A DNA stretch of 64,000 bases from a bacterium. GTDB taxonomy: Bacteria > Sysuimicrobiota > Sysuimicrobiia > Sysuimicrobiales > Segetimicrobiaceae. The notes below the pieces were generated by a model. The model saw nothing but the letters and a program-made list of their open reading frames with translations, did not search any database and was not told the origin of the DNA. Shown here in pieces: positions 35,935-48,233 of the stretch. The stretch spans positions 1 through 64,000 of the forward strand of contig DATGHU010000025.1 of NCBI GenBank assembly GCA_035307765.1, in the 5' to 3' direction. Every line of letters begins with the position of its first letter. Positions within the stretch are counted from its first letter, which is position 1. Made by a program: the position numbers and the translations under genes.

Positions 35935-36881
35935 GCGCGGTACGCTCCGCCCCAGCCCTCCCCCTCTCGCGGGCGTCCGGCGTGCCGCGGCGGGTGGAGA
36001 CCGGGTGGCACCGCACGGTGCGCCGGTTTCGGAAGAACCCGCTGTCCGTGCTCGGCGGGCTGATCGTGGTGCTTTTTGCGCTGGTCGCCCTGCTGGCCCC
36101 GGTCCTGGCGCACCCGACCGAGCGGAATCCCTACATGATCCCCCACTCCGGGTACTCCAGCGATCCGCGCCCGCCCGGGCCGGGACACCCCTTCGGCACC
36201 ACCGAGGAGCAGTTCGACCTGTACTACGGGGTGATCTGGGGGGCGCGCACCGCGTTCGTCGTCGCGCTGACGGTGGTGGCGACGGCCGTGGTCACGGCGC
36301 TGATCCTGGGCAGCGTCAGCGGGTACTACGGCGGGCCCGCGGACGAGCTGGTGATGCGGATTACCGACATCTTCCTGGCATTCCCCGGGCTGATCCTGGC
36401 CGTGGTGATCGTGGCGGTGCTGGGGCAGAGCGTCCGGAACGCGGTCATCGCCATCGCCGTGGTGGAGTGGCCGACCTACACCCGCCTCCTGCGGGGCGAG
36501 TTTCTCCGGGTGCGCGACATCGAATACGTGCAGGCCGCCCAGGCCCTGGGGGGTGGCGACTTCCACATCATCACCCGCCACGTGATTCCCAACACCATCT
36601 ATCCGATGTTGATCCTGGCCTCGTTGAACATGGGGGGCATCGTCATCACCTTCGCCGCCCTCTCCTTCTTGGGCCTCGGCGCGCCCCCCGGCTACGCCGA
36701 CTGGGGGCAGCTGATCAACCTGTCCCACAACTGGATCGCGGGAACGGCCGGCGACCCCTTCACGTACTGGTACACCCTCATCGTCCCGGGGACCGCGATC
36801 TTCCTGTTCGTCCTGGGATGGAACCTCCTCGGGGACGCCTTCCGCGACATTTTCGATCCCCACCTTCAGGGGAGCCGGTAG
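35931..36881 (+). CDS. Peptide-type ABC transporter permease (DppC/OppC family) 2
   Basis: A 316-residue protein from TTG 35931, which overlaps the preceding stop; GTG 35982 is an alternative that trims a variable leader. The N-terminal helix is LSVLGGLIVVLFALVALLAPV, then HPFGTTEEQFDLYYGVIWGAR replaces the usual GTDxxGRD box. The EAA loop is VRDIEYVQAAQALGGGDFHI. The end is NLLGDAFRDIFDPHLQG, the family end. Without the long insert seen in the first OppC-type gene, it has ordinary length. Confidence 0.92.
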   Translation: MSAVRSAPALPLSRASGVPRRVETGWHRTVRRFRKNPLSVLGGLIVVLFALVALLAPVLAHPTERNPYMIPHSGYSSDPRPPGPGHPFGTTEEQFDLYYGVIWGARTAFVVALTVVATAVVTALILGSVSGYYGGPADELVMRITDIFLAFPGLILAVVIVAVLGQSVRNAVIAIAVVEWPTYTRLLRGEFLRVRDIEYVQAAQALGGGDFHIITRHVIPNTIYPMLILASLNMGGIVITFAALSFLGLGAPPGYADWGQLINLSHNWIAGTAGDPFTYWYTLIVPGTAIFLFVLGWNLLGDAFRDIFDPHLQGSR

Positions 36882-36928
36882 CCGCCCATCCAGGGAACCC
36901 GTTCCTCCTGACCGAACACGGTCTCCAT

Positions 36929-36955
36929 GGGCGAGGCCCGTCCGCGGGCTCGCCC
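36929..36955. repeat. Hairpin before binding protein 3
   Basis: An 11-bp stem with one bulged G and a TCCG tetraloop (36929-36940 with 36945-36955), in the 101-base gap between permease 2 and binding protein 3. It is a third GC hairpin at a binding-protein boundary in this locus. Confidence 0.5.
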
Positions 36956-36982
36956 GTCCATCTGCCAGAGGAGGGGGAGGAG

Positions 36983-38756
36983 ATGCACACGGTACCATGG
37001 ATCCGGCGCACGACCGCCGTGGCCGCCGCGGTGCTCCTGATCGGCGCACTGAGCGTGGTCACCGTTCGCGGCGCGGGGGAGCCGGTGAAAAATCCGGGGA
37101 CGTTCGTCGAGCTGCAGTTTGGGGATGTGAGCAGCCTCGATCCCGATCTCGCCTACGACATCTACTCCGCCGAACCGATCTGGCCCAACGTCTACGAGAC
37201 GCTGATCACGTACAGCGGGTCGTCGCTCGACAAGTTTCAACCGATGCTGGCGACCGAAGTGCCGAGCCTGGCCAACCACCTGATCAGCCCGGACGGGCTC
37301 ACCTACACCTTTCCGATCCGGAAGGGCGTCCACTTTCACGACGGGTCGGTGATGACCCCCGATGACGTCGTCTACTCGATCCGGCGGTTTCTGCTCCAGG
37401 ACAGGCCGGCGGACCGGCGTGGCTCCTGCTCAGCCCGCTCTTGGGGATCGACAGCACCCGCGACGACAAGGGGAAGATCCAGGTGGCCTTCGCCGACGTC
37501 GCGCGGGCGGTGAGCGCCAAGGGCGACGACGTCGTCATCCACCTGAAGAAGCCCTTCGCGCCGTTCCTGACGATCATCGCCGCCTGGGGAGGCGTGATGC
37601 CGCGCGCCTGGGCGGCGGCGCACGGGGATTGGGACGGCAGCGCGGGGACGTGGCAGAAGTACAACAACCCCAAGACCGAGGACCGCTACGCCTTCGACCA
37701 CATGGACGGCACGGGGCCCTTCAAGCTCGATCACTGGGACCGCCAGGCCAAAGAAGTCCTCCTCGTCCGGAACGACAGCTACTGGCGACTCCCGCCGCGC
37801 TCGAGCGGGTCGTGATCCAGTCGGTGGCGGAGTTCACCGCCCGGCGCCTGCAGCTGCAGCAGGGCGACGCCGACCTGGTCGTCGCCTCGCTGAACCAGGA
37901 GAACCAGCTGCGCGGCCTGCCGGGCACGGTGATCGAAGACAACCTCCCCCAGATCGCCGTCCAGACGCTGCAGTTCAACGTCAAGATCAACACCGAGGCC
38001 AACCCGGACGCGGGCAGCGGCCGCCTGGACGGCGCGGGGATCCCGCCGGACTTCTTCGCCGACATCCACGTGCGGCGGGGATTCGCCTATGCCTTCGACT
38101 ACGCCGCGAACCTGAACGGGGCCTACGCCGGCAAGGGCGTCCTGCCCCACGGCCCGATCGTGCAGGGGCTGCTGGGGTTCGACCCCACGATCCCGGTGTA
38201 CACGACGAGCCGCGAGAAGGCCGTCGCCGAGTTCAAGGAGGCGATGGGGGGCAAGGTCTGGGACACCGGGTTCAAGCTCACGATCCCGTACACCGCCGGG
38301 AACACCGCGCGGCAGGTGGGGGCGCAGATCGTCAAGGACACGGCCGAGGCGATCAACCCCAAGTTCCAGATCGCGTCCCGGCCGGTGCCGTCCAGCGCCC
38401 TGACTGACCTCCTCTTCAGCCACAAGGGGACGATGTACTTCCTGGGCTGGTTCGCCGATTATCCGGACCCGCACGACTTCGCGCAGCCGTTTCTGTCGGC
38501 GAACGGGTACTTCCCGGTCCGGGGTGGGTACCGGAATCCCGAGGCGGACCGGCTGATCGACCAGGCCGTCGGCACCGCCGACCCGGAGAAGCGAAAGGCC
38601 CTCTACAAGCAGCTCTCCATGATCGCCTACAACGATGTTCCGTACCTGTTCCTCGTCCAGCCCGTCACCTACTACGCGATGCGCTCGTGGGTGCACGGCT
38701 GGTACTACAACCCGATCTACCCGGGGCAGTACTTCTACACGATCAGCAAGCGCTGA
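36983..38756 (+). pseudogene. Peptide-type substrate-binding protein 3, two frameshifts
   Basis: ATG 36983 after GGGGGAGG starts a signal peptide and a family 5 binding protein that follows binding protein 2 throughout. Near 37403 the frame slips (after LLQD, one base is missing before GPAWLLLSPLLG), and near 37789 it slips again (between NDSYWR and TPAALERVV). Both look like single-base deletions. Apart from these, all landmarks remain, including MDGTGPFKLDHWDRQ and HVRRGFAYAFDYAANL, and no internal stops occur in the joined frame of about 590 codons. Either the gene is very recently broken or the assembly has indel errors; the clean rest of the frame favours the latter or a young lesion. 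If intact it would be a periplasmic peptide-binding protein. Confidence 0.85.
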
Positions 38757-38815: not shown

Positions 38816-38829
38816 CGCTGTGCTACGAT
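38800..38829 (+). promoter_or_regulatory. Promoter of gatCAB
   Basis: TTGAGC at 38800-38805, an 18-base spacer ending TGC, and TACGAT at 38824-38829. The same hexamers and TGC occur in the tRNA-Leu promoter. Transcription would start about 28 bases before the gatC ATG. Confidence 0.65.
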
Positions 38830-38863
38830 GACACCGGATGGACGATTGGGGGGCATCGCAGCG

Positions 38864-39154
38864 ATGATCGATGATCGGACCGTGGCGCGTGTCGCCCGAC
38901 TCAGCCGGCTGGAGCTCTCCGCGGAGGAACGCGATCGGTTTCGCGCGCAGCTCGGGCAGATCCTCGAGTACGTGCAGTCGCTCGACGCCCTCGATGTGAG
39001 AAACGTCCCGCCGACCGCGCACGTGCAGGCGGCGGTCAACGTCCTGCGCGATGACGTCGCCGCTCCCTCCCTCGATCAACGCGCGGCGCTCGCGAACGCC
39101 CCCGCCGAGGAGGACGGCTACTTCGTCGTTCCGCCGGTGATCACCGAGGAATGA
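38864..39154 (+). CDS. gatC: Asp-tRNA(Asn)/Glu-tRNA(Gln) amidotransferase subunit C
   Basis: ATG 38864 gives 96 residues beginning [18 protein letters not shown], the usual GatC opening; the in-frame ATG at 38828 would start before the likely transcript. The helical hairpin ([20 protein letters not shown]) and the C-terminal belt ([20 protein letters not shown] ... GYFVVPPVI) that wraps GatA and GatB are present. GatCAB amidates mischarged Glu-tRNA(Gln) and Asp-tRNA(Asn). Its stop overlaps the gatA start by four bases. Confidence 0.95.
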
Positions 39155-40638
39155 GCACAGCGCCCGGTCTCGCCGACCGGTCGGCCTGGGAGCTGCGCGA
39201 CCTGTACCGGCGGCGGGAAACCTCCCCGACGGAGGTGGTGCGCGCCCTCCTCGACCGCATCGCCGCGGAGGAGCCGCGCCTGCATGCCTATCTGTCCGTG
39301 GACCGCGAGACCTCGCTGGCCGATGCCGCGCGGTGGGACGCCGCCGCCGGCGCGGAGGACGCGCCGCCGCTGGCCGGGATCCCGGTGGCGATCAAGGACA
39401 ACATCTGTACGCGCGGCTGGCCGACGACCTGCGCCTCGCGCACGCTGGAGCGGTTCCGGCCCCCCTACGACGCGACCGTTGTGGCGCGGCTGCGCCGGGC
39501 CGGCGCGATCCTGGTGGGGAAGGTCAACCTCGACGAGTTCGCGATGGGCAGCAGCACCGAGTACTCCGCCTTCGGGCCGACCCGCAATCCCTGGGATCCC
39601 ACTCGGGTCCCGGGGGGCACGAGCGGGGGCCCGGCGGCGGCGGTGGCGGCGGGGGAGGCCACGCTGGCGCTCGGGTCGGACACCGGCGGGAGCATCCGCC
39701 AGCCCGCGGCGTTCTGCGGCGTGGTCGGGCTCAAACCGACCTACGGCCGGGTCTCGCGGTACGGGCTGGTCGCGTTCGCGTCGTCCCTCGATCAGATCGG
39801 TCCGCTTGCCCGCGATGTGCGCGACGCCGCGCTCCTGCTTCAGGTGATCGCGGGGCACGATCCGGCCGACGCCACCTCCGCCCGGGTCGAGGTGACACCC
39901 TACCTGGAGCGGCTGACCGGGGAGATCCGCGGGAAGCGCCTGGGCGTGGTGCGCGAGTTCTTCGCCGAGGGCCTCGATCCGGCGGTCGGCGCAACCGTCC
40001 GCGAGGCGATCGCGACCTGCCGCCGCCTCGGCGCGGTGTGCGAAGACGTCTCGCTGCGCCTCGCCGCCTCCGCGCTGCCGGCCTACTACATCATCGCGCC
40101 CGCCGAGGCGAGCAGCAACCTGGCGCGGTACGCCGGCGTTCACTACGGGCACCGGTCGGCGGAGGCCCGCGATCTCGAGACGCTCTATTCGCGGACCCGG
40201 CGGGAGGGGTTCGGCGCGGAAGTCAAACGGCGGATCATGCTTGGCACCTACGCGCTCTCCGCCGGGTACTACGAGGCGTTCTACCTCCGCGCCCAGCGCG
40301 TCCGGACGCTGATCCGCCAGGACTTCGAGGCGGCCTTCGCCCGGTTCGACGCGCTGATCGGCCCGGTCGCGCCCACCACGGCGTTCCGGCTGGGGGAGAA
40401 GGTCGACGATCCGCTGCAGATGTACCTGTCCGACATCTACACCGTGCCGCTGAATCTCGCCGGGATCCCGGGGATCTCGGTGCCCTGCGGGTTCGTCGGC
40501 GGGCTCCCGGTGGGGCTGCAGGTGATCGGCCGACCCTTCGACGAGGAGACGATCCTGAACGTGGCCTACGCCTTCGAGCGGGCCACGCCGTTTCACACCG
40601 CGCGGCCCCCACAGGCCGGCGGCCAGTCTCGGTCATGA
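39151..40638 (+). CDS. gatA: Glu-tRNA(Gln) amidotransferase subunit A
   Basis: The glutaminase subunit, which releases ammonia for transfer to the tRNA-bound amino acid. The 495-residue product has the amidase triad Lys 82 (VAIKDNIC), cis-Ser 158 (PGGTSGG) and nucleophile Ser 181 ([11 protein letters not shown]). The usual serine after TSGG is a proline here (TSGGPAAAV). The rest follows the family through [18 protein letters not shown]-like and [19 protein letters not shown] segments. It is coupled to gatC by ATGA. An 81-base gap, with a ribosome site, leads to gatB. Confidence 0.96.
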
Positions 40639-40719: not shown

Positions 40720-42162
40720 ATGGGCGCGAGGTACGAGACGGTCATCGGCCTGGAAGTGCACGTCCAGCTCAGCACGGCCAGCAAGATGTTCTGCGCCTGC
40801 GCCGTGGCGTTCGGCGGGCCGCCGAACACGCTGACCTGCCCCGTATGCCTCGGTCTCCCCGGATCGCTCCCCGTCCTGAACCGCCGCGCCGTCGAGTTCG
40901 GGATCCGGACGGCGCTGGCGCTGGGGTGCGCCATCCACCCGGAGAGCCAGTTCCACCGCAAAAACTACTACTATCCGGACCTGCCGAAAAACTATCAGAT
41001 CTCGCAGTACGAATACAAGGACCATCCGCCGCTCGCGACCGGGGGGGTGCTCCGCGTCTCCGCGGGGGGAGACACCCGGACGGTCGGCATCCGGCGCGTG
41101 CACCTTGAGGAGGACACGGGCAAGCTCGTGCACGCCGAGGGGCGCAGCCTCGTGGACTACAACCGGTCGGGGACCCCGCTGATGGAGGTCGTCACCGAGC
41201 CCGATCTCCGCTCCCCCGACGAGGCGCGGTCCTTTCTCGGCCACCTGCGGGCGACGCTGCAGTTCGCCGAGGTGACGAGCGGACGCCTGGAGGAGGGCAC
41301 ATTTCGCTGCGACGCCAACCTCTCGCTCCGCCTTCCGGACGGCCCGCACGGAACCCGGACGGAGGTCAAGAACATGAACTCTCTCCGCTCCGTGGAACGG
41401 GCCCTGCGGTTCGAGGAGGCGCGGCAGCGGCAGGTACTGGAGCAGGGGGGATCGATCACTCAGGAAACGCGCCACTGGGACGAGGACCGGGAGATCACCT
41501 TCGCCTCTCGCGAAAAGGAAGAGGCGCAGGACTACCGGTACTTCCCGGAGCCGGACCTGGTCCCCCTCCGCGTCGACGCGGCGTGGGTGGATCGCGTCCG
41601 CGCCGAGCTTCCCGAACTCCCCGAGGCACGCCGCCGCCGCTACGTCGACGTCCTCGGCCTGCCGGAGCACGATGCCACGGTGCTCACCGCGACCCGGGCG
41701 ATGGCCGAGTTCTTTGAGCGCACCGCCGAGGCGTTTCCGCACCCGAAGGTGGTGAGCAACTGGCTGATCGGCGACGTGGCCGCCTACCTCAACGTCGTGG
41801 GGCGCGAGATCGACGAGGTCCCGATCCGCCCCGAGTCGCTCGCCGGGTTGCTGGCGCTGATGGACGCCGGCACGGTGAGCGGACGGTCGGCGAAAGAGGT
41901 GCTGGAAGAGATGCTGCGCACCGGCCGCCCCGCGGACGCCATCGTCGCCGAACGGGGGCTGGTGCAGATCAGCGATGAAGCGATGCTGGCCCGGGTCGTG
42001 CAGGACGTGATCGCCGAGCACCCGGGACCGGTGGCCGATGTCCGCGCGGGCAAGGTGCAGGCGCTGACCTTTCTGGTGGGACAGGTCATGAAGAAGACCC
42101 GCGGCCGGGCCAACCCCTCGCTGGCCAACCGGCTGATCCGGGAGCAGTTGCGTGCCGGGTAG
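40720..42162 (+). CDS. gatB: Asp/Glu-tRNA amidotransferase subunit B
   Basis: The kinase and tRNA-binding subunit of GatCAB. The 480 residues open with YETVIGLEVHVQL and the zinc site CACAVAFGGPPNTLTCPVC (Cys 25, 27, 40, 43). NYYYPDLPKNYQISQYEY and HLEEDTGKLVH form the active site. The C-terminal GatB/YqeY tail domain (about 335-480) binds tRNA. Length and order are normal. The end overlaps the next start by 11 bases. Confidence 0.97.
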   Translation: MGARYETVIGLEVHVQLSTASKMFCACAVAFGGPPNTLTCPVCLGLPGSLPVLNRRAVEFGIRTALALGCAIHPESQFHRKNYYYPDLPKNYQISQYEYKDHPPLATGGVLRVSAGGDTRTVGIRRVHLEEDTGKLVHAEGRSLVDYNRSGTPLMEVVTEPDLRSPDEARSFLGHLRATLQFAEVTSGRLEEGTFRCDANLSLRLPDGPHGTRTEVKNMNSLRSVERALRFEEARQRQVLEQGGSITQETRHWDEDREITFASREKEEAQDYRYFPEPDLVPLRVDAAWVDRVRAELPELPEARRRRYVDVLGLPEHDATVLTATRAMAEFFERTAEAFPHPKVVSNWLIGDVAAYLNVVGREIDEVPIRPESLAGLLALMDAGTVSGRSAKEVLEEMLRTGRPADAIVAERGLVQISDEAMLARVVQDVIAEHPGPVADVRAGKVQALTFLVGQVMKKTRGRANPSLANRLIREQLRAG

Positions 42163-43552
42163 CCCGGGCGTACCTCGGAGCCCTCGACCGCCGCGGCGTC
42201 CACCTCGGCGTCGCCGGCGGTCGCGCGCCGGCCCCCGCCTGGCCAGGGGTGAGAAGCTCGTGGTTCGGTTCACGCGGATGGGCCCCGACGGCGAGGCGAT
42301 TGCGAACGTCTCGGGGCGCGACCTCGCCGTTCCCTATGCCGCGCCCGGTGAAGAGGCCCGCGTCCGGGTTCAGAGCGTCCGGCGCGGCCAGGCGCGGGGG
42401 CAACTCATCGCCCTGCGGGTGGTCTCCCCCCGCGTGGTGCCTCCGCGATGCCCCCACTTCGGCCGCTGCGGCGGCTGCCAGTGGCAGCACCTCGAGTACC
42501 GCGCGCAGCTGGAGCAGAAGGCCGCGCTCGTGCGCGCCGCGCTCGGGCGCACCGGCGTGCCGCCCCACCTCGTCTCCCCGGCGATCGGATGGGAGCCCCC
42601 CTGGGCGTTTCGTACCCACCTCGAGGCCGCCGTCGGCACGCGCGAGACCAAGCCGGTGCTCGGGTTCTCGAGCTGGGGCGGGGGCCGGATCATCGAAATC
42701 CAGCAGTGCCCGGTGCAGCACCCGGGGAACGTCTCCGCCCTCCATGCCCTGCGGGAGGCCTGGGAGCCGCTCCACCCGCTGGCGGGCGTCCTCCGCGGTC
42801 TGCTCAGCCGGACGGGCGCCGCCACGGGGGAGGTCCTGGCCGGGGTCTCCGCGGTCCGGCGGCTGTCGCCGGCCGAGCGCCTCCTGATCGTGCGGGCGCT
42901 GCTCGACCGGATCCCGCACTTGGTGGGGCTGATGGAAGTGAGGGCCCCGCGCGGCCACCTCCTGGCAGGCCGGCGGGCCGACCTCCTCTGGGGGCGGCCG
43001 TACGTGGCGGACGAGGTGGCCGGTGTGCGGTTCCACATCCCCCTGCTGGCGGAGTTTCCGGTGAACGCCCTGAGTCTGCCCGGGGTGATCGAGCTGGTCC
43101 TGGCTGAACTCGACGCTTCGTCCGCCGACACCGTGGTGGAGCCGGACGCCGGGATCGGCGCCTACACGTGTCACCTGGCGCTGGCCGCGGGGCGCGTCGT
43201 CGCGGTGACCGAAGCGGCGCAGCTGGATGCCGCGTGGGCGAACGCCCGCCTGAACCGCCTGACGAACTGCTATTTTTATACGCGCGATCCGGCGCGGGCG
43301 CTCGGAAAGCTGGCCGGCGCGCACCTGGCCTTTCTTCATCCCACGGGCGGTGGGATCGCCCCGGGGCTTCTCCGCGCGCTGAGGGCGGCGGGGGTGCGAC
43401 GCGTCGTCTACCTGGGACGGGCCCTCCGCGCGCTGGAGCGCGACGTTGCGGCGCTGGCGCGCGATGGCTACCGGGTTCTCGCCGTGCGGCCGATCGATCT
43501 CAGCCCGCACACGAGCCGCGTCCACGCGCTGGTCACGGCGTCTGCGGCATGA
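42152..43552 (+). CDS. RlmD/TrmA-like TRAM and Fe-S protein lacking catalytic residues
   Basis: The 466-residue protein has the layout of class I RNA 5-methyluridine methyltransferases: a basic N-terminal tail, a TRAM RNA-binding domain (about 34-92), a four-cysteine iron-sulfur site (Cys 100, 106, 109, 186), a central domain, and a Rossmann methyltransferase domain (about 325-466). The catalytic parts are altered. The Cys of the VSCNP motif is replaced (VVYLGRALRALERD, Arg 423), and the DPPR box reads HPTGGG (396-401). The FxQxN motif reads EFPVN, and the C-terminal base Glu of HVE is His 458. The frame is intact and the flanking pattern (RVLAVRPIDLSPHT) is conserved, so this is a maintained protein that probably binds RNA without methylating it. 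Confidence 0.85.
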   Translation: MPGSPGVPRSPRPPRRPPRRRRRSRAGPRLARGEKLVVRFTRMGPDGEAIANVSGRDLAVPYAAPGEEARVRVQSVRRGQARGQLIALRVVSPRVVPPRCPHFGRCGGCQWQHLEYRAQLEQKAALVRAALGRTGVPPHLVSPAIGWEPPWAFRTHLEAAVGTRETKPVLGFSSWGGGRIIEIQQCPVQHPGNVSALHALREAWEPLHPLAGVLRGLLSRTGAATGEVLAGVSAVRRLSPAERLLIVRALLDRIPHLVGLMEVRAPRGHLLAGRRADLLWGRPYVADEVAGVRFHIPLLAEFPVNALSLPGVIELVLAELDASSADTVVEPDAGIGAYTCHLALAAGRVVAVTEAAQLDAAWANARLNRLTNCYFYTRDPARALGKLAGAHLAFLHPTGGGIAPGLLRALRAAGVRRVVYLGRALRALERDVAALARDGYRVLAVRPIDLSPHTSRVHALVTASAA

Positions 43553-43635
43553 TCCGCGCCCGCTCTCGAACGCAGGACTTGCCCTCCAGGGATCGAACCC
43601 CCTAGGGGTCGTAAGGCGCCGGAGGCACCGTCTGC

Positions 43636-46600
43636 ATGCCCGCTGAGTTCGTCCACTGCCACCTCCACAGCGAATACTCCCTGCTCGATGGTGAAAGTCG
43701 GATCGCTGCCCTGATGCAGCGGGCCCAGGAGTTGGGGATCCCCGCGCTGGCGCTGACGGATCACGGCGCGATGTACGGGGCGATCGAGTTCTACCAAGAG
43801 GCCAGGGCGCACGACATCACCCCGATCATCGGGGTCGAAGCGTACGTCGCTCCCCGGCGGATGATCGACCGCGACCCCAAGCTCGACGCGTCGGCCTTCC
43901 ACCTCGTGCTGCTGGCGGCGAACCTCGAAGGGTACCGGAACCTGCTCAAGCTCACGACCGCCGCCCACCTCGACGGCTTTTACTACAAGCCGCGCATCGA
44001 CCGGGAGCTGCTGAGCCGCTACGCTGGCGGGCTGATCGGCCTGTCGGGATGCCTCCAGGGGGAGGTGCCGCGGGCCCTGCTGCGCGGCGACGGCGCGGCG
44101 GCGGCCGAGATCGCGGCGACCTACCGCGATATCTTCGGTCCCGGAAACTTTTACCTGGAGGTCCAGGACCACGGGCTCCCCGACCAGCGGACGCTGATCC
44201 ACGGCATCACGCCGCTCGCCCGCGACCTCGGCCTGCCCCTGGTGGCGACCAATGACGTCCACTACGTCACGCGGGACGAGGCGGACGCCCAGGACGTCCT
44301 GATGTGCATTCAGATGGGGCTGGCGCTCGATCAGAAGGACAAGCCCCGGATGGGGGAGACCCCCGAGTTTTACCTGAAGAGCCCCGCGGAGATGGCGGCG
44401 CGGTTTGCCGAGCTGCCCGAGGCGCTCGCGAACACGCTGGCGATCGCGGAGCGCTGCCGGCTGGAGATCGAGACCGGCCAACTGAAGCTGCCGCTCTTCC
44501 CCGTGCCGGAGGGCGAGACGGCGGACTCCTATCTGCGCCGGCTCTGCGAGGCCGGGATCCGGCGGATCTACGGTCAGCTCACCCCGACGCTCGGGGAGCG
44601 GCTGGACTACGAGCTGGGCATCATCGCCAAGATGGGCTACGCCGCCTACTTCCTCATCGTGCAGGACTTCGTCAACTTTGCCCGCCGCGGCGGCATCTTC
44701 ACCACGGTGCGGGGGTCCGCCGCCGGGAGCCTGGTCCTGTATGCCTGCGGCGTCACCGATGTCGACCCGATCGCCTACCGGCTGCCCTTCGACCGCTTCC
44801 TCAACCTGGAGCGGTACACGATGCCGGACATCGACGTCGATTTCATGGACAGCCGCCGCGACGAGGTGATCAAGTATGTGATGGACAAGTACGGCGCCGA
44901 CCGCGTGGCGCAGATCATCACCTTCGGGACGATGGGCGCCCGCGCCGCCATCCGGGACGTCGGCCGGGTGATGGGGCTGCCCTACGGAGACGTCGACCGC
45001 ATCGCCAAGCTGATCCCGGGCCCCTTCGTGACGCTGAAGGAGGCGCTGGAGGCGGAGCCGGAGCTGCGGGCGGCCGCGCAGGACAACGCCCAGGTCCGCC
45101 GGTTGCTGGACCTGGCCCAAAAGCTCGAAGGCGTCGCCCGCCACGCCAGCACCCACGCCGCCGGGGTGATCATCTCCCGCGATCCCCTCATCGACCAGGT
45201 CCCGCTGCAGCGCGCGACCAAAGGGGACCTCGTGATGACGCAGTTCGACATGAACAGCGTCGCCGCGATCGGCCTGCTGAAAATGGATTTCCTCGGGCTG
45301 ACGAACCTGACGATCCTCGATAGCGCCATCCGGATCATCCGCGAGACCCGGGGGGTGGAGATCGACCTTCAGCAGGTCGCGCTCGACGACCAGCCCACCT
45401 ATGCGCTGCTGTCCTCGGGCGAGACGACCGGCATCTTCCAGCTGGAGGGTCGCGGCATTCGGCGGTACCTCAAGGACCTGCGGCCGGACCGGATCGAGGA
45501 CGTGATGGCGATGGTCGCGCTCTTCCGCCCCGGCCCGATGGCGAACATCCCGTCGTACATCCGGCGGAAGCACGGCCAGGAACCGGTGACCTACCTCCAC
45601 CCGCTGCTCGAGCCGGTGCTCAAGGATACCTACGGGGTGATGGTCTATCAGGAAGATATCATGACCGTCGCCCAGGCGGTGGCGGGCTACACGCTGGCCG
45701 AAGCCGATGTGCTCTGCTATGCCATCCGCAAGAAGATCAAGGATCGCCTGCTCGCCCAGCGGGAGAAGTTCGTCCGCGGCGCCCGGCAGAAAGGGGTGCC
45801 CGCGAGGATCGTCGACCAGATCTTCGAGCAGTTCGAGCCGTTCGCCCGCTACGGGTTCAACCGCGCGCACGCCGCCTGCTACGGGCTGATCGCCTACTAC
45901 ACGGCTTATCTCAAGGCGCACTACTCGGCCGAGTACATGACCGCGGTGATGACCAGCGACGCCGGCAACACGGAAAAGGTGGCGGAGGCCGTCGCGGAGT
46001 GCCACCGCATGGGCATCCGCATCCTCCCCCCCGACGTGAACACCAGCGCGGCGTCGTTTACGGTCGAGGGCGACGCGATCCGGTTCGGGCTGGCCGCGGT
46101 CCGCAACGTCGGCCTCGGCGCCGTGGAGTCGATGATCGCCGCGCGGACCTCTGAGCGGTTCGCCAGCCTGACCGATTTCTGCTCGCGGGTCGACACGCGG
46201 CAGGTCAACCAGCGGGTCGTCGCCAGCCTGGTCAAGGCGGGTGCGCTGGATTCGCTGGGGACCTCGCGGGCCCAGATGCTGCAGACGCTCGACGACACGA
46301 TGGACCAGGCCCAGCGTGCCCAACGGGTCCGGCTGCAGGGTCAGACCGGGCTGTTCGACCTCGGGGTGGGGGAGGCTCCCGCCCCGCCGGGGCCGGAGGC
46401 CGGGGAGGAGTTCAGCCGGGACGAGCTGCTGACGATGGAAAAGGAGATGCTCGGCCTCTACATCTCCGATCATCCGCTCACCCGCTGGCAGCCGGTGCTG
46501 GACCAGCGGGTCACCGTCCAGCTGGGGCAGCTGCTCGACCTCCCCGATCACAAAGAGGTCGTCGTGGGCGGGCTGGTCAGCGTGATGAAGCGGACGATCA

Positions 46601-47154
46601 CCCGGTCGGGGTCGGCGATGGCCTTCCTCACGCTGGAGGATCTCACCGGCAGCGTCGAGGTGATCGTCTTCCCCCGGGTCTACGAGCAGCAGGGGTTCGC
46701 GCTCAAGCGGGACGCCGTGCTCCTGATGCGGGGCAAGGTCGATATCGAGGAGCAGACCGCCAAGATCCTGTGCGAGGAAATCCTCGAGCTGCCCGCCTCC
46801 CCCGACGCGGTCGCGCAGGCGCCGCGGACGGGGGGAGGGGTGCTCGCGGGCGGCGCGGTGGGGAGCGACAACGGACGCGGCTCCGGCAACGGGAACGGCG
46901 CGCGGGGCGGCGATCCGAGGCCCGCGGATCCCATTCGGCCGCCGCTCCGCATCCGGGTGAGCACGCGCGAGGAAATCGAGCAGCTGGAGCGGTACCTGCT
47001 CGAGCATCCCGGCGACCGGCAGGTCTGCGTGCACGTGGTCACCGATCAGGGAGACGAGCACATCGTTCCGGCCCGCAGCCGCCTCCAGGACGTCGAGGGC
47101 CTGCACCAGGAGCTTGAGCAGTTGTTCGGGGAGGGAAACGTCTGGGAAGAGTAG
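43636..47154 (+). CDS. dnaE: DNA polymerase III alpha subunit DnaE
   Basis: The replicative polymerase subunit, 1172 residues. It has a PHP domain (about 3-280; HCHLHSEYSLLDG, ALTDHGAMYGA) and a polymerase core with catalytic Asp 400 and Asp 402 (PDIDVDF) and Asp 551 (KMDFLGL). Thumb, fingers and tandem helix-hairpin-helix regions follow, then an OB fold (about 970-1050, VVVGGLVSVMKRTITRSG) and a C-terminal tail after a Gly/Asn-rich linker. The PHP metal residues look present, so a PHP proofreading activity is possible. There is no intein. ATG 43636 follows an 83-base gap with no clear promoter. Confidence 0.97.
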   Translation: MPAEFVHCHLHSEYSLLDGESRIAALMQRAQELGIPALALTDHGAMYGAIEFYQEARAHDITPIIGVEAYVAPRRMIDRDPKLDASAFHLVLLAANLEGYRNLLKLTTAAHLDGFYYKPRIDRELLSRYAGGLIGLSGCLQGEVPRALLRGDGAAAAEIAATYRDIFGPGNFYLEVQDHGLPDQRTLIHGITPLARDLGLPLVATNDVHYVTRDEADAQDVLMCIQMGLALDQKDKPRMGETPEFYLKSPAEMAARFAELPEALANTLAIAERCRLEIETGQLKLPLFPVPEGETADSYLRRLCEAGIRRIYGQLTPTLGERLDYELGIIAKMGYAAYFLIVQDFVNFARRGGIFTTVRGSAAGSLVLYACGVTDVDPIAYRLPFDRFLNLERYTMPDIDVDFMDSRRDEVIKYVMDKYGADRVAQIITFGTMGARAAIRDVGRVMGLPYGDVDRIAKLIPGPFVTLKEALEAEPELRAAAQDNAQVRRLLDLAQKLEGVARHASTHAAGVIISRDPLIDQVPLQRATKGDLVMTQFDMNSVAAIGLLKMDFLGLTNLTILDSAIRIIRETRGVEIDLQQVALDDQPTYALLSSGETTGIFQLEGRGIRRYLKDLRPDRIEDVMAMVALFRPGPMANIPSYIRRKHGQEPVTYLHPLLEPVLKDTYGVMVYQEDIMTVAQAVAGYTLAEADVLCYAIRKKIKDRLLAQREKFVRGARQKGVPARIVDQIFEQFEPFARYGFNRAHAACYGLIAYYTAYLKAHYSAEYMTAVMTSDAGNTEKVAEAVAECHRMGIRILPPDVNTSAASFTVEGDAIRFGLAAVRNVGLGAVESMIAARTSERFASLTDFCSRVDTRQVNQRVVASLVKAGALDSLGTSRAQMLQTLDDTMDQAQRAQRVRLQGQTGLFDLGVGEAPAPPGPEAGEEFSRDELLTMEKEMLGLYISDHPLTRWQPVLDQRVTVQLGQLLDLPDHKEVVVGGLVSVMKRTITRSGSAMAFLTLEDLTGSVEVIVFPRVYEQQGFALKRDAVLLMRGKVDIEEQTAKILCEEILELPASPDAVAQAPRTGGGVLAGGAVGSDNGRGSGNGNGARGGDPRPADPIRPPLRIRVSTREEIEQLERYLLEHPGDRQVCVHVVTDQGDEHIVPARSRLQDVEGLHQELEQLFGEGNVWEE

Positions 47155-47171: not shown

Positions 47172-48233
47172 GTGGTGATCGCCGGTGCCTCGTTCGCCGG
47201 TTTGGCGGTCGCGCGCGAGATCGGGGGCCGGGCCCTTCTGGTGGATCCCCAGCCGGTGGGCGAGGGGCAGACTTCGGCGTGCGGGGCGCCGGTGAGCGTG
47301 ATCGAGGCGTTGGGGGCGCGCGACTCGATCCAGCAGCGGCACGATGTCCTCGTCCTGCACACCGTGGATCGAGAGGTGCGCTGGCCGCTCCCCGAGCCGT
47401 TCTGCACGTTTGACTACCGGGAGTGCTGCCGTGCCGCGTTGGGGGGGACGGGCGCGCGGGTCCTTCGCGCCCGCATCCAGGGGCGGCGGGGGCAGACCGC
47501 GCTCACCTCCGCCGGCGAGCTGGCGGGGCGCATCCTGGTGGACTGCACCGGATGGCGGGCCGCCCTGGCGGAAGGGAGGGACGTCGACGGGGAGGGGCGC
47601 GGCGGCCATAGGCCGCGCTGCCTCGGCTTCGGCCTGGAAGCGGAGGTGGACGCCGAATTCCCGCCCGGCCTGCATTTTTATTTCTGGCCCGAGATCGTCC
47701 GGGACGGGTACGCCTGGGCGTTTCCGGCGGGGCGCACGACCCGGATCGGGGTGCTCAGTTACCGTGGACGGACCCGACTCGGCCACGCCCTCAACGAGTT
47801 CCTGAAGCGACTGGACATGCCGCGCGGTCCGCTGCACGGGGGGTTCCTTCGCGCCGACCTGCACCCGCCGGTCGTGGATGGGGTGTTTGTGGTCGGCGAT
47901 GCGGGGGGGCAGTGTCTCCCGCTCACCGGTGAGGGGATTCGGACGGCGGCGTGGGCGGGGGCGGCCTGCGGCCGAGTGGTCCGGGGTGTCCTCGACGGCG
48001 GCCTGACGCGCGACGAGGCCGAGGCCGACTACCGGAGGCTCGTGGCGCGTCAGCGGCGGCGGTACCGAACGCTGCTCTGGGCGACGCTGGCGGTGCTCGC
48101 CCTTCCCGCGGGGGCGCTGGGCCCGCTGGCCGCGTGGGTTGCCCACCCGAGCCGGCTGGACTGGGCGATGCGGCACTACCTCCGGATCTTCTCGGAGCGC
48201 TCGGCTCCCGAGCTCTCCGCGGAATCGGCGTGA
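47172..48233 (+). CDS. FAD-dependent oxidoreductase, geranylgeranyl reductase-like
   Basis: A 353-residue flavoprotein. The N-terminal dinucleotide fold is VVIAGASFAGLAVARE with the acidic end of strand 2 at LLVDP. The family's second FAD motif is GVFVVGDAGGQCLPLTGEGIRTA, and the CGAP segment near residue 37 matches geranylgeranyl reductase and related enzymes. A C-terminal hydrophobic stretch (about 305-325) may touch the membrane. GTG 47172 or 47175 are possible starts; family members usually have one or two residues before VVIAG, and the frame is open further upstream. It lies 17 bases after dnaE. Reduction of an isoprenoid or quinone side chain is plausible but unproven. Confidence 0.85.
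   Translation: MVIAGASFAGLAVAREIGGRALLVDPQPVGEGQTSACGAPVSVIEALGARDSIQQRHDVLVLHTVDREVRWPLPEPFCTFDYRECCRAALGGTGARVLRARIQGRRGQTALTSAGELAGRILVDCTGWRAALAEGRDVDGEGRGGHRPRCLGFGLEAEVDAEFPPGLHFYFWPEIVRDGYAWAFPAGRTTRIGVLSYRGRTRLGHALNEFLKRLDMPRGPLHGGFLRADLHPPVVDGVFVVGDAGGQCLPLTGEGIRTAAWAGAACGRVVRGVLDGGLTRDEAEADYRRLVARQRRRYRTLLWATLAVLALPAGALGPLAAWVAHPSRLDWAMRHYLRIFSERSAPELSAESA

Follow-up and report, generated by a model that had tools for sequence, protein, structure and literature searches.

The question raised by this locus is why a bacterial lineage should keep, in one long open frame, a homologue of the RNA 5-methyluridine (m5U) methyltransferases from which every catalytic motif has gone. The window analysed here is a stretch of 64,000 nucleotides (positions 1 to 64,000 of contig DATGHU010000025.1, assembly GCA_035307765.1) from a member of the Segetimicrobiaceae in the phylum Sysuimicrobiota, and the gene in question, on its forward strand, encodes a relative of RlmD (RumA), the methyltransferase that forms m5U1939 in 23S rRNA. 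Our favoured explanation, to which we give a probability of roughly one half, is that the product belongs to the RlmD (COG2265) family as a pseudoenzyme that binds RNA without catalysis, and that it would serve as a folding or assembly factor for rRNA or tRNA. Copies of this type are called dead below, and those with the catalytic motifs in place are called intact or active.

Residues were mapped onto E. coli RlmD (1UWV) with an additional alignment to relatives, and the counts given here cover the orthologues that have a letter at the site concerned. The gene and the parts of its product are as follows.

42152..43552, + strand: open reading frame (ORF) of the RlmD-like pseudoenzyme, 466 amino acids, GTG start, with an orthologue in 31 of 43 phylum genomes
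42152..42244, + strand: tail rich in Arg and Pro at the N terminus (residues 1-31), weakly conserved; residues 1-25 have a predicted local distance difference test score (pLDDT) below 50 and are disordered in the model
42245..42430, + strand: TRAM (OB-fold) RNA-binding domain, residues 32-93 (Pfam PF01938, E 1.5e-6)
42449..42478, + strand: iron-sulphur (Fe-S) loop with Cys100, Cys106 and Cys109 (C-x5-C-G-G-C), invariant in 28/28 complete orthologues
42707..42709, + strand: Cys186, the fourth Fe-S ligand, in the central domain (30/30 orthologues)
43022..43549, + strand: Rossmann methyltransferase-like domain, residues 291-466, its predicted fold kept and its catalytic residues all replaced
43058..43060, + strand: Pro303, where the FxQxN motif of RlmD has Gln265 (29/32 orthologues have P)
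43283..43285, + strand: Arg378, a basic residue specific to the dead clade near the former S-adenosylmethionine (SAM) site (R in 27/28; mostly G in active copies)
43337..43348, + strand: HPTG at 396-399 in place of DPPR, with Gly399 for Arg366 (G in 28/31)
43418..43420, + strand: Arg423 at the site of the nucleophile, Cys389 (of 31 orthologues, 20 have R, 6 have H and 5 another residue)
43523..43525, + strand: His458 in place of the general base Glu424 (H in 20/30)

The frame opens with the GTG at 42152, closes with the stop codon at 43550-43552 and runs for 466 codons without an internal stop. A preliminary description of the sequence had called it long and undamaged and had reported a TRAM domain and four Fe-S cysteines kept beside catalytic motifs lost, and on alignment each of these observations holds. 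The E. coli ligands C81, C87, C90 and C162 correspond to C100, C106, C109 and C186 of the window protein, whereas C389 is replaced by R423, E424 by H458, D363 and R366 of the DPPR box by H396 and G399, and F263 and Q265 by E301 and P303 (the motif now reading EFPVN). To these can be added a loss beyond those described earlier, that of E315, the acidic residue which, as in class I methyltransferases generally, holds the ribose of SAM and which is T353 here.

The same replacements run through the orthologues. Cysteine stands at the Cys389 site in none of 31 (R 20, H 6, T 2, Q 1, S 1, G 1), so that no member of the clade has the nucleophile; glutamine is absent at the Gln265 site (0/32, P 29), aspartate at the Asp363 site (0/27) and any acid at the SAM-ribose site, where 31/31 have T, A, V or I; and the native residue is found once at the Arg366 site (1/31, G 28) and aligns twice at the Glu424 site (2/30, H 20). 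The GxG of motif I is kept in the window copy and broken in two families, f2 and f6 (family handles are ours), while the motif I acid is D or E in 32/32 and the four Fe-S cysteines are found in 28/28, 28/28, 28/28 and 30/30. By contrast, every catalytic residue is present in the intact paralogues from Sysuimicrobiota (37-38 of 37-38), which have E or D as the SAM acid (38/38), and 46 homologues from other phyla keep the catalytic residues in 45-46 of 46, with a single Asp-to-Asn exception. At the level of sequence, methylation chemistry has been lost throughout the clade, and the window protein, although a homologue of RlmD, lies by function outside the RlmD enzymes, whose defining catalytic features it lacks. 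What the sequences retain is the apparatus for gripping RNA, namely the TRAM domain and the Fe-S loop with its glycine, G108, which is invariant in the dead clade and corresponds to the Gly89 through which the Fe-S loop of RumA contacts RNA (PMC5614603).

The fold of RlmD (TRAM, central and Rossmann domains) is predicted to be kept as well. AlphaFold2, given the dead-clade alignment, returned a model of pLDDT 88 and predicted template modelling (TM) score 0.85 with disorder confined to residues 1-25; the top Foldseek match is RlmCD (5xj1, E 2.6e-42, TM 0.86/0.89), and RumA (1uwv, 2bh2) matches with TM 0.78-0.90. The protein scores 204 bits against the NCBIfam equivalog model for RlmD, TIGR00479, whose cut-off is 183.55, and hence passes as a homologue without having the function that the model names; because the cut-off is exceeded, automatic annotation with current family models would misname dead proteins as active 23S rRNA methyltransferases. 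Most full-length dead copies also score above this curated cut-off.

A search of 43 Sysuimicrobiota genomes, the collection holding one order of the phylum, recovered the dead type in 31 genomes from five families (f1 12, f2 8, f6 9, f5 1, f7 1); 'Candidatus Segetimicrobium genomatis' (L032), of the window genome's own genus, is among the relatives with a homologue, and the Segetimicrobium orthologue is 69% identical to the window protein. The dead type was not found in any of the seven f4 genomes, in the one f3 genome or in four others that are 77-89% complete. Most genomes of the phylum have both copies, and in the window genome the second homologue is unlinked, 33% identical and intact in its motifs (FFQPN, DLYCGGG, DPPR, SCNP, HVE). 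No TrmFO was found in any of the 43 genomes by a search that was positive in 7 of 14 control genomes, and no genome has more than two full-length COG2265 proteins; each therefore has, apparently, a single intact RNA m5U methyltransferase of the COG2265 type, a TrmA-type protein of its own being absent.

In two careful trees, with which a quick tree agrees, the dead proteins group as a single clade with support of 100/100. In the best trees this clade does not join the active copies of Sysuimicrobiota, although a tree uniting the two is not rejected (approximately unbiased test, p-AU 0.281). This placement gives no support to a recent duplication of RlmD within the phylum, and the origin of the clade may be an old duplication or a transfer. 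Outside the phylum, the 40 strong matches read individually are all intact and none lacks the cysteine, the weaker matches (E > 1e-70) being unread, and no description of an inactive RlmD/COG2265 family was found in the searchable literature, whose coverage leaves out most subscription journals. The dead proteins make up a conserved, apparently phylum-restricted and, as far as that literature goes, undescribed family of pseudoenzymes.

Was such a gene selected for something besides methylation, as the preliminary description had supposed? The absence of the cysteine from all orthologues and the ratios of nonsynonymous to synonymous substitution (dN/dS) both support the idea. Estimated by the method of Nei and Gojobori from pairs with unsaturated synonymous sites, dN/dS is 0.13-0.37 in the dead copy, overlapping the 0.13-0.25 of the intact paralogue, and where a pair of genomes yielded values for both copies, these are close except in one branch of f1 (f1/g3; 0.29-0.37), in which the gene has been relocated. 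These values indicate purifying selection on the dead copy. The replacement residues are themselves conserved in part, as had been proposed for checking: when the sites of the dead domain are ranked by conservation, P303, G399 and R378 fall within the top 8%, L425 within the top 11% and S424 within the top 19%. R423 and H458 take middle places (37th and 56th percentile), and H396 varies freely and is among the least conserved. This suggests that the former active site has been partly re-specified and not merely eroded. The dead proteins are also more basic than the intact ones, with a mean isoelectric point of 10.6 against 8.4 and mean net charges of +6.4 against -0.6 in the catalytic domain and +4.9 against +1.3 in the central domain.

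The genes around the locus, whose adjacency to gatB and dnaE had been correctly read from the start, are these.

38828-39154, + strand: gatC, upstream of the pseudoenzyme gene
39151-40638, + strand: gatA, upstream of the pseudoenzyme gene
40720-42162, + strand: gatB, the immediate upstream neighbour; the order gatC-gatA-gatB with the pseudoenzyme gene is conserved across families
43636..47154, + strand: dnaE, the downstream neighbour

The GTG of the pseudoenzyme gene lies within an 11-nt overlap with the end of gatB and has, on direct reading, a Shine-Dalgarno-like GGGAG 7 nt upstream. Within the reach of the contigs, gatC-gatA-gatB precede the gene in 22/22 other gatB-flanked loci examined (families f1, f2, f5, f6 and f7), a candidate start overlaps or abuts the gatB stop (-13 to 0) in 20/23 loci, and dnaE comes next in most of those whose contigs extend far enough. 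By this arrangement the gene is placed for co-translation with gatCAB. Several relatives have a TACAAT box between the pseudoenzyme gene and dnaE, which suggests that dnaE has its own promoter, and the pseudoenzyme gene would then close the gat transcription unit. Among 27 genomes of other phyla with a gatB match, just 2 (G168, G277) have rlmD on the same contig within ~10 kb of gatB, so that the location of the dead gene is not simply inherited; an ancestral gatB-rlmD linkage is unsupported by these genomes.

The arrangement is not universal in the phylum. In the f1/g3 genomes the gene has diverged and moved away from gatB. In the f4 genomes examined no remnant of it was found between gatB and dnaE, and in most of them an aminotransferase-like ORF (identified by eye) fills the gap, while in the f3 genome (G013) the two genes are 53 bp apart with nothing between. 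The f1/g3 copies L051, L063 and L066 are strongly diverged (branch 1.69), and in G006 the old site holds a different ORF between gatB and dnaE. The gap between the pseudoenzyme gene and dnaE also has features of its own. In the window it contains a T-arm-like sequence at 43585-43602 (reverse complement GGGGGTTCGATCCCTGGA), perhaps the remnant of a tRNA 3' end, which is partial, is not called as a tRNA by ARAGORN and is absent from the relatives checked; in G001 and G002 (L081 5090-5577, L082 6965-7697) it holds small ORFs that resemble, by eye, RelBE-like and MazEF-like toxin-antitoxin pairs, which suggests an insertion hot spot.

How might such a protein work? Among the functions offered by the preliminary description (an Fe-S RNA-binding or chaperone protein, or a new chemistry), RNA binding is favoured, and the loss of SAM-binding residues across the clade speaks against a SAM-dependent chemistry common to its members. 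The pseudoenzyme would bind a structured RNA loop, without methylating it, in the cleft used by active RlmD (TRAM domain, Fe-S loop, central domain and the now-basic former active site), and would in this way assist the folding or assembly of 23S rRNA or of a tRNA. With RlmD/RumA (1UWV/2BH2, TIGR00479) it shares the whole domain architecture, the four Fe-S cysteines and the predicted fold (TM ~0.8-0.9), lacking C389, E424, D363, R366, Q265, F263 and E315. TrmA, the tRNA m5U54 methyltransferase (3BT7), has the common family fold and is a weaker structural match (rank 13); it differs in being catalytically intact and in having neither a TRAM domain nor an Fe-S cluster. It nevertheless provides a precedent for the role proposed here, as TrmA is essential in E. 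coli whereas its methyltransferase activity is not, and it acts as a tRNA chaperone (PMC7912444). In the comparison with RlmCD of S. pneumoniae (SP_1029, 5XJ1) and YefA of B. subtilis, the former being the best structural match, the situation is reversed, for RlmCD keeps catalysis without an Fe-S cluster (PMC5614603) and the dead protein keeps the ligands without the catalytic residues. Another m5U-methylase paralogue in which the catalytic cysteines have been replaced clade-wide is found in the TrmFO-like proteins of Mollicutes (PMC7226160), although these belong to an unrelated flavin/folate family and keep the cofactor sites that the dead RlmD has largely lost.

Several observations weigh against a role in RNA folding or assembly. 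Family f4 manages without the gene, and most of these data would also agree with a protein that regulates or joins a heteromer, or with a former SAM pocket that has taken on a new ligand. Mean site entropy is 1.77 bits in the dead domain and 1.03 in active copies, and a domain so much less conserved may be largely scaffold; constraint is uneven, however, the TRAM domain and Fe-S loop of the dead clade being just moderately looser and the second half of the central domain equally conserved (1.55 dead, 1.56 active). The gain of arginine (11.7% against 10.1% in intact copies) may in part be drift driven by GC content, though Asp+Glu also fall (8.5% against 10.6%), and since such drift alone could explain it, the basic shift is supportive and not decisive. 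It is tempting to extend the favoured explanation to a phylum-specific family of Fe-S pseudoenzymes, derived from a 23S rRNA methyltransferase whose SAM/uridine site was turned into a basic pocket that would hold an RNA loop or anionic ligand. Made together with GatCAB, such a protein would be dedicated to the folding of rRNA or tRNA or to tRNA delivery, but we hold this fuller version tentatively and consider it doubtful as a whole.

We think it unlikely that the dead protein is instead a regulatory or structural partner of active RlmD, binding it or competing for its 23S site as a pseudo-subunit. METTL14 and Trm6 are examples of such subunits, in which a methyltransferase fold without catalysis is used for RNA binding; these are eukaryotic, are obligate partners of an active paralogue and have no Fe-S cluster or TRAM domain. 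The presence of intact RlmD in nearly all dead-copy genomes is what a partner would require, but one dead-copy genome that is 97% complete (G020) has seemingly no intact RlmD, an assembly gap being possible there, and six f4 genomes more than 90% complete carry the intact copy alone. The two genes are moreover unlinked in the window's genome, and RlmD-type enzymes are described as monomers. TrmA, too, is a monomer (PMC7912444).

There is also only a slim chance that the former SAM/uridine pocket now binds some other anionic ligand or supports a new chemistry, perhaps with the Fe-S cluster. The conservation, unlike that of active enzymes, of R378 (27/28), P303, G399 and the Ser-Leu pair that follows Arg/His 423, together with the invariably acidic motif I residue, would be expected of a re-used pocket. 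The candidate catalytic residues, however, differ among families (R, H or T at 423, with H396 among the most variable), and with motif I broken in f2 and f6 a shared SAM chemistry is not to be expected.

Equally improbable, in our estimate, is a dedicated tRNA factor that works with GatCAB, presenting mischarged Glu/Asp-tRNA or stabilising the transamidosome, in place of a general RNA chaperone. The conserved gene order with its start/stop overlap speaks for such a factor, as does the lack of TrmFO and of a third COG2265 protein, which leaves these genomes without a separate TrmA-type tRNA-arm protein, but the products of neighbouring operon genes need not work together, the gene has left the vicinity of gatB in f1/g3, and f3 and f4 run gatCAB without the pseudoenzyme. 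That the gene is decaying, or is an artefact of assembly, is hardly credible and is rejected: the faster evolution of the dead domain and the long f1/g3 branch would fit decay, but the dN/dS values, orthologues both close and distant without Cys or DPPR, about 22 independent assemblies, drawn from five families, with the frame open, Fe-S ligands that never vary and shared replacement residues all speak against it, and the two doubts raised in the preliminary description, a decaying copy and assembly indels, fall away.

TrmA and TruB raise the question of what preserves RNA-modifying enzymes, the reaction that they catalyse or the hold that they have on RNA. A natural lineage that has retained the grip and the Fe-S ligands and discarded the chemistry, while an intact paralogue persists beside it, offers a ready-made test. 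The family also prompts the question of which purpose RlmD's Fe-S cluster serves, as the ligands outlast catalysis in the dead clade; taken with the catalysis of RlmCD in the absence of a cluster, this makes the two traits separable in both directions.

Elsewhere in the window, a gene for a family-5 solute-binding protein beside the gat operon (36900-38756) appears broken across three reading frames, its N-terminal part in the frame of the ORF 36005-37513, its middle at 37441-37815 and its C-terminal part at 37362-38756, and hence carries frameshifts or assembly indels. Beyond dnaE, an ORF of 353 amino acids at 47172-48233 has by eye the look of an FAD-dependent oxidoreductase and no Pfam match at E 0.001. 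A second DnaE homologue, ~34% identical and ~1,050-1,100 amino acids long, is present in many genomes of the phylum (G014, G025, G028, G031, G013, G006 and G009).

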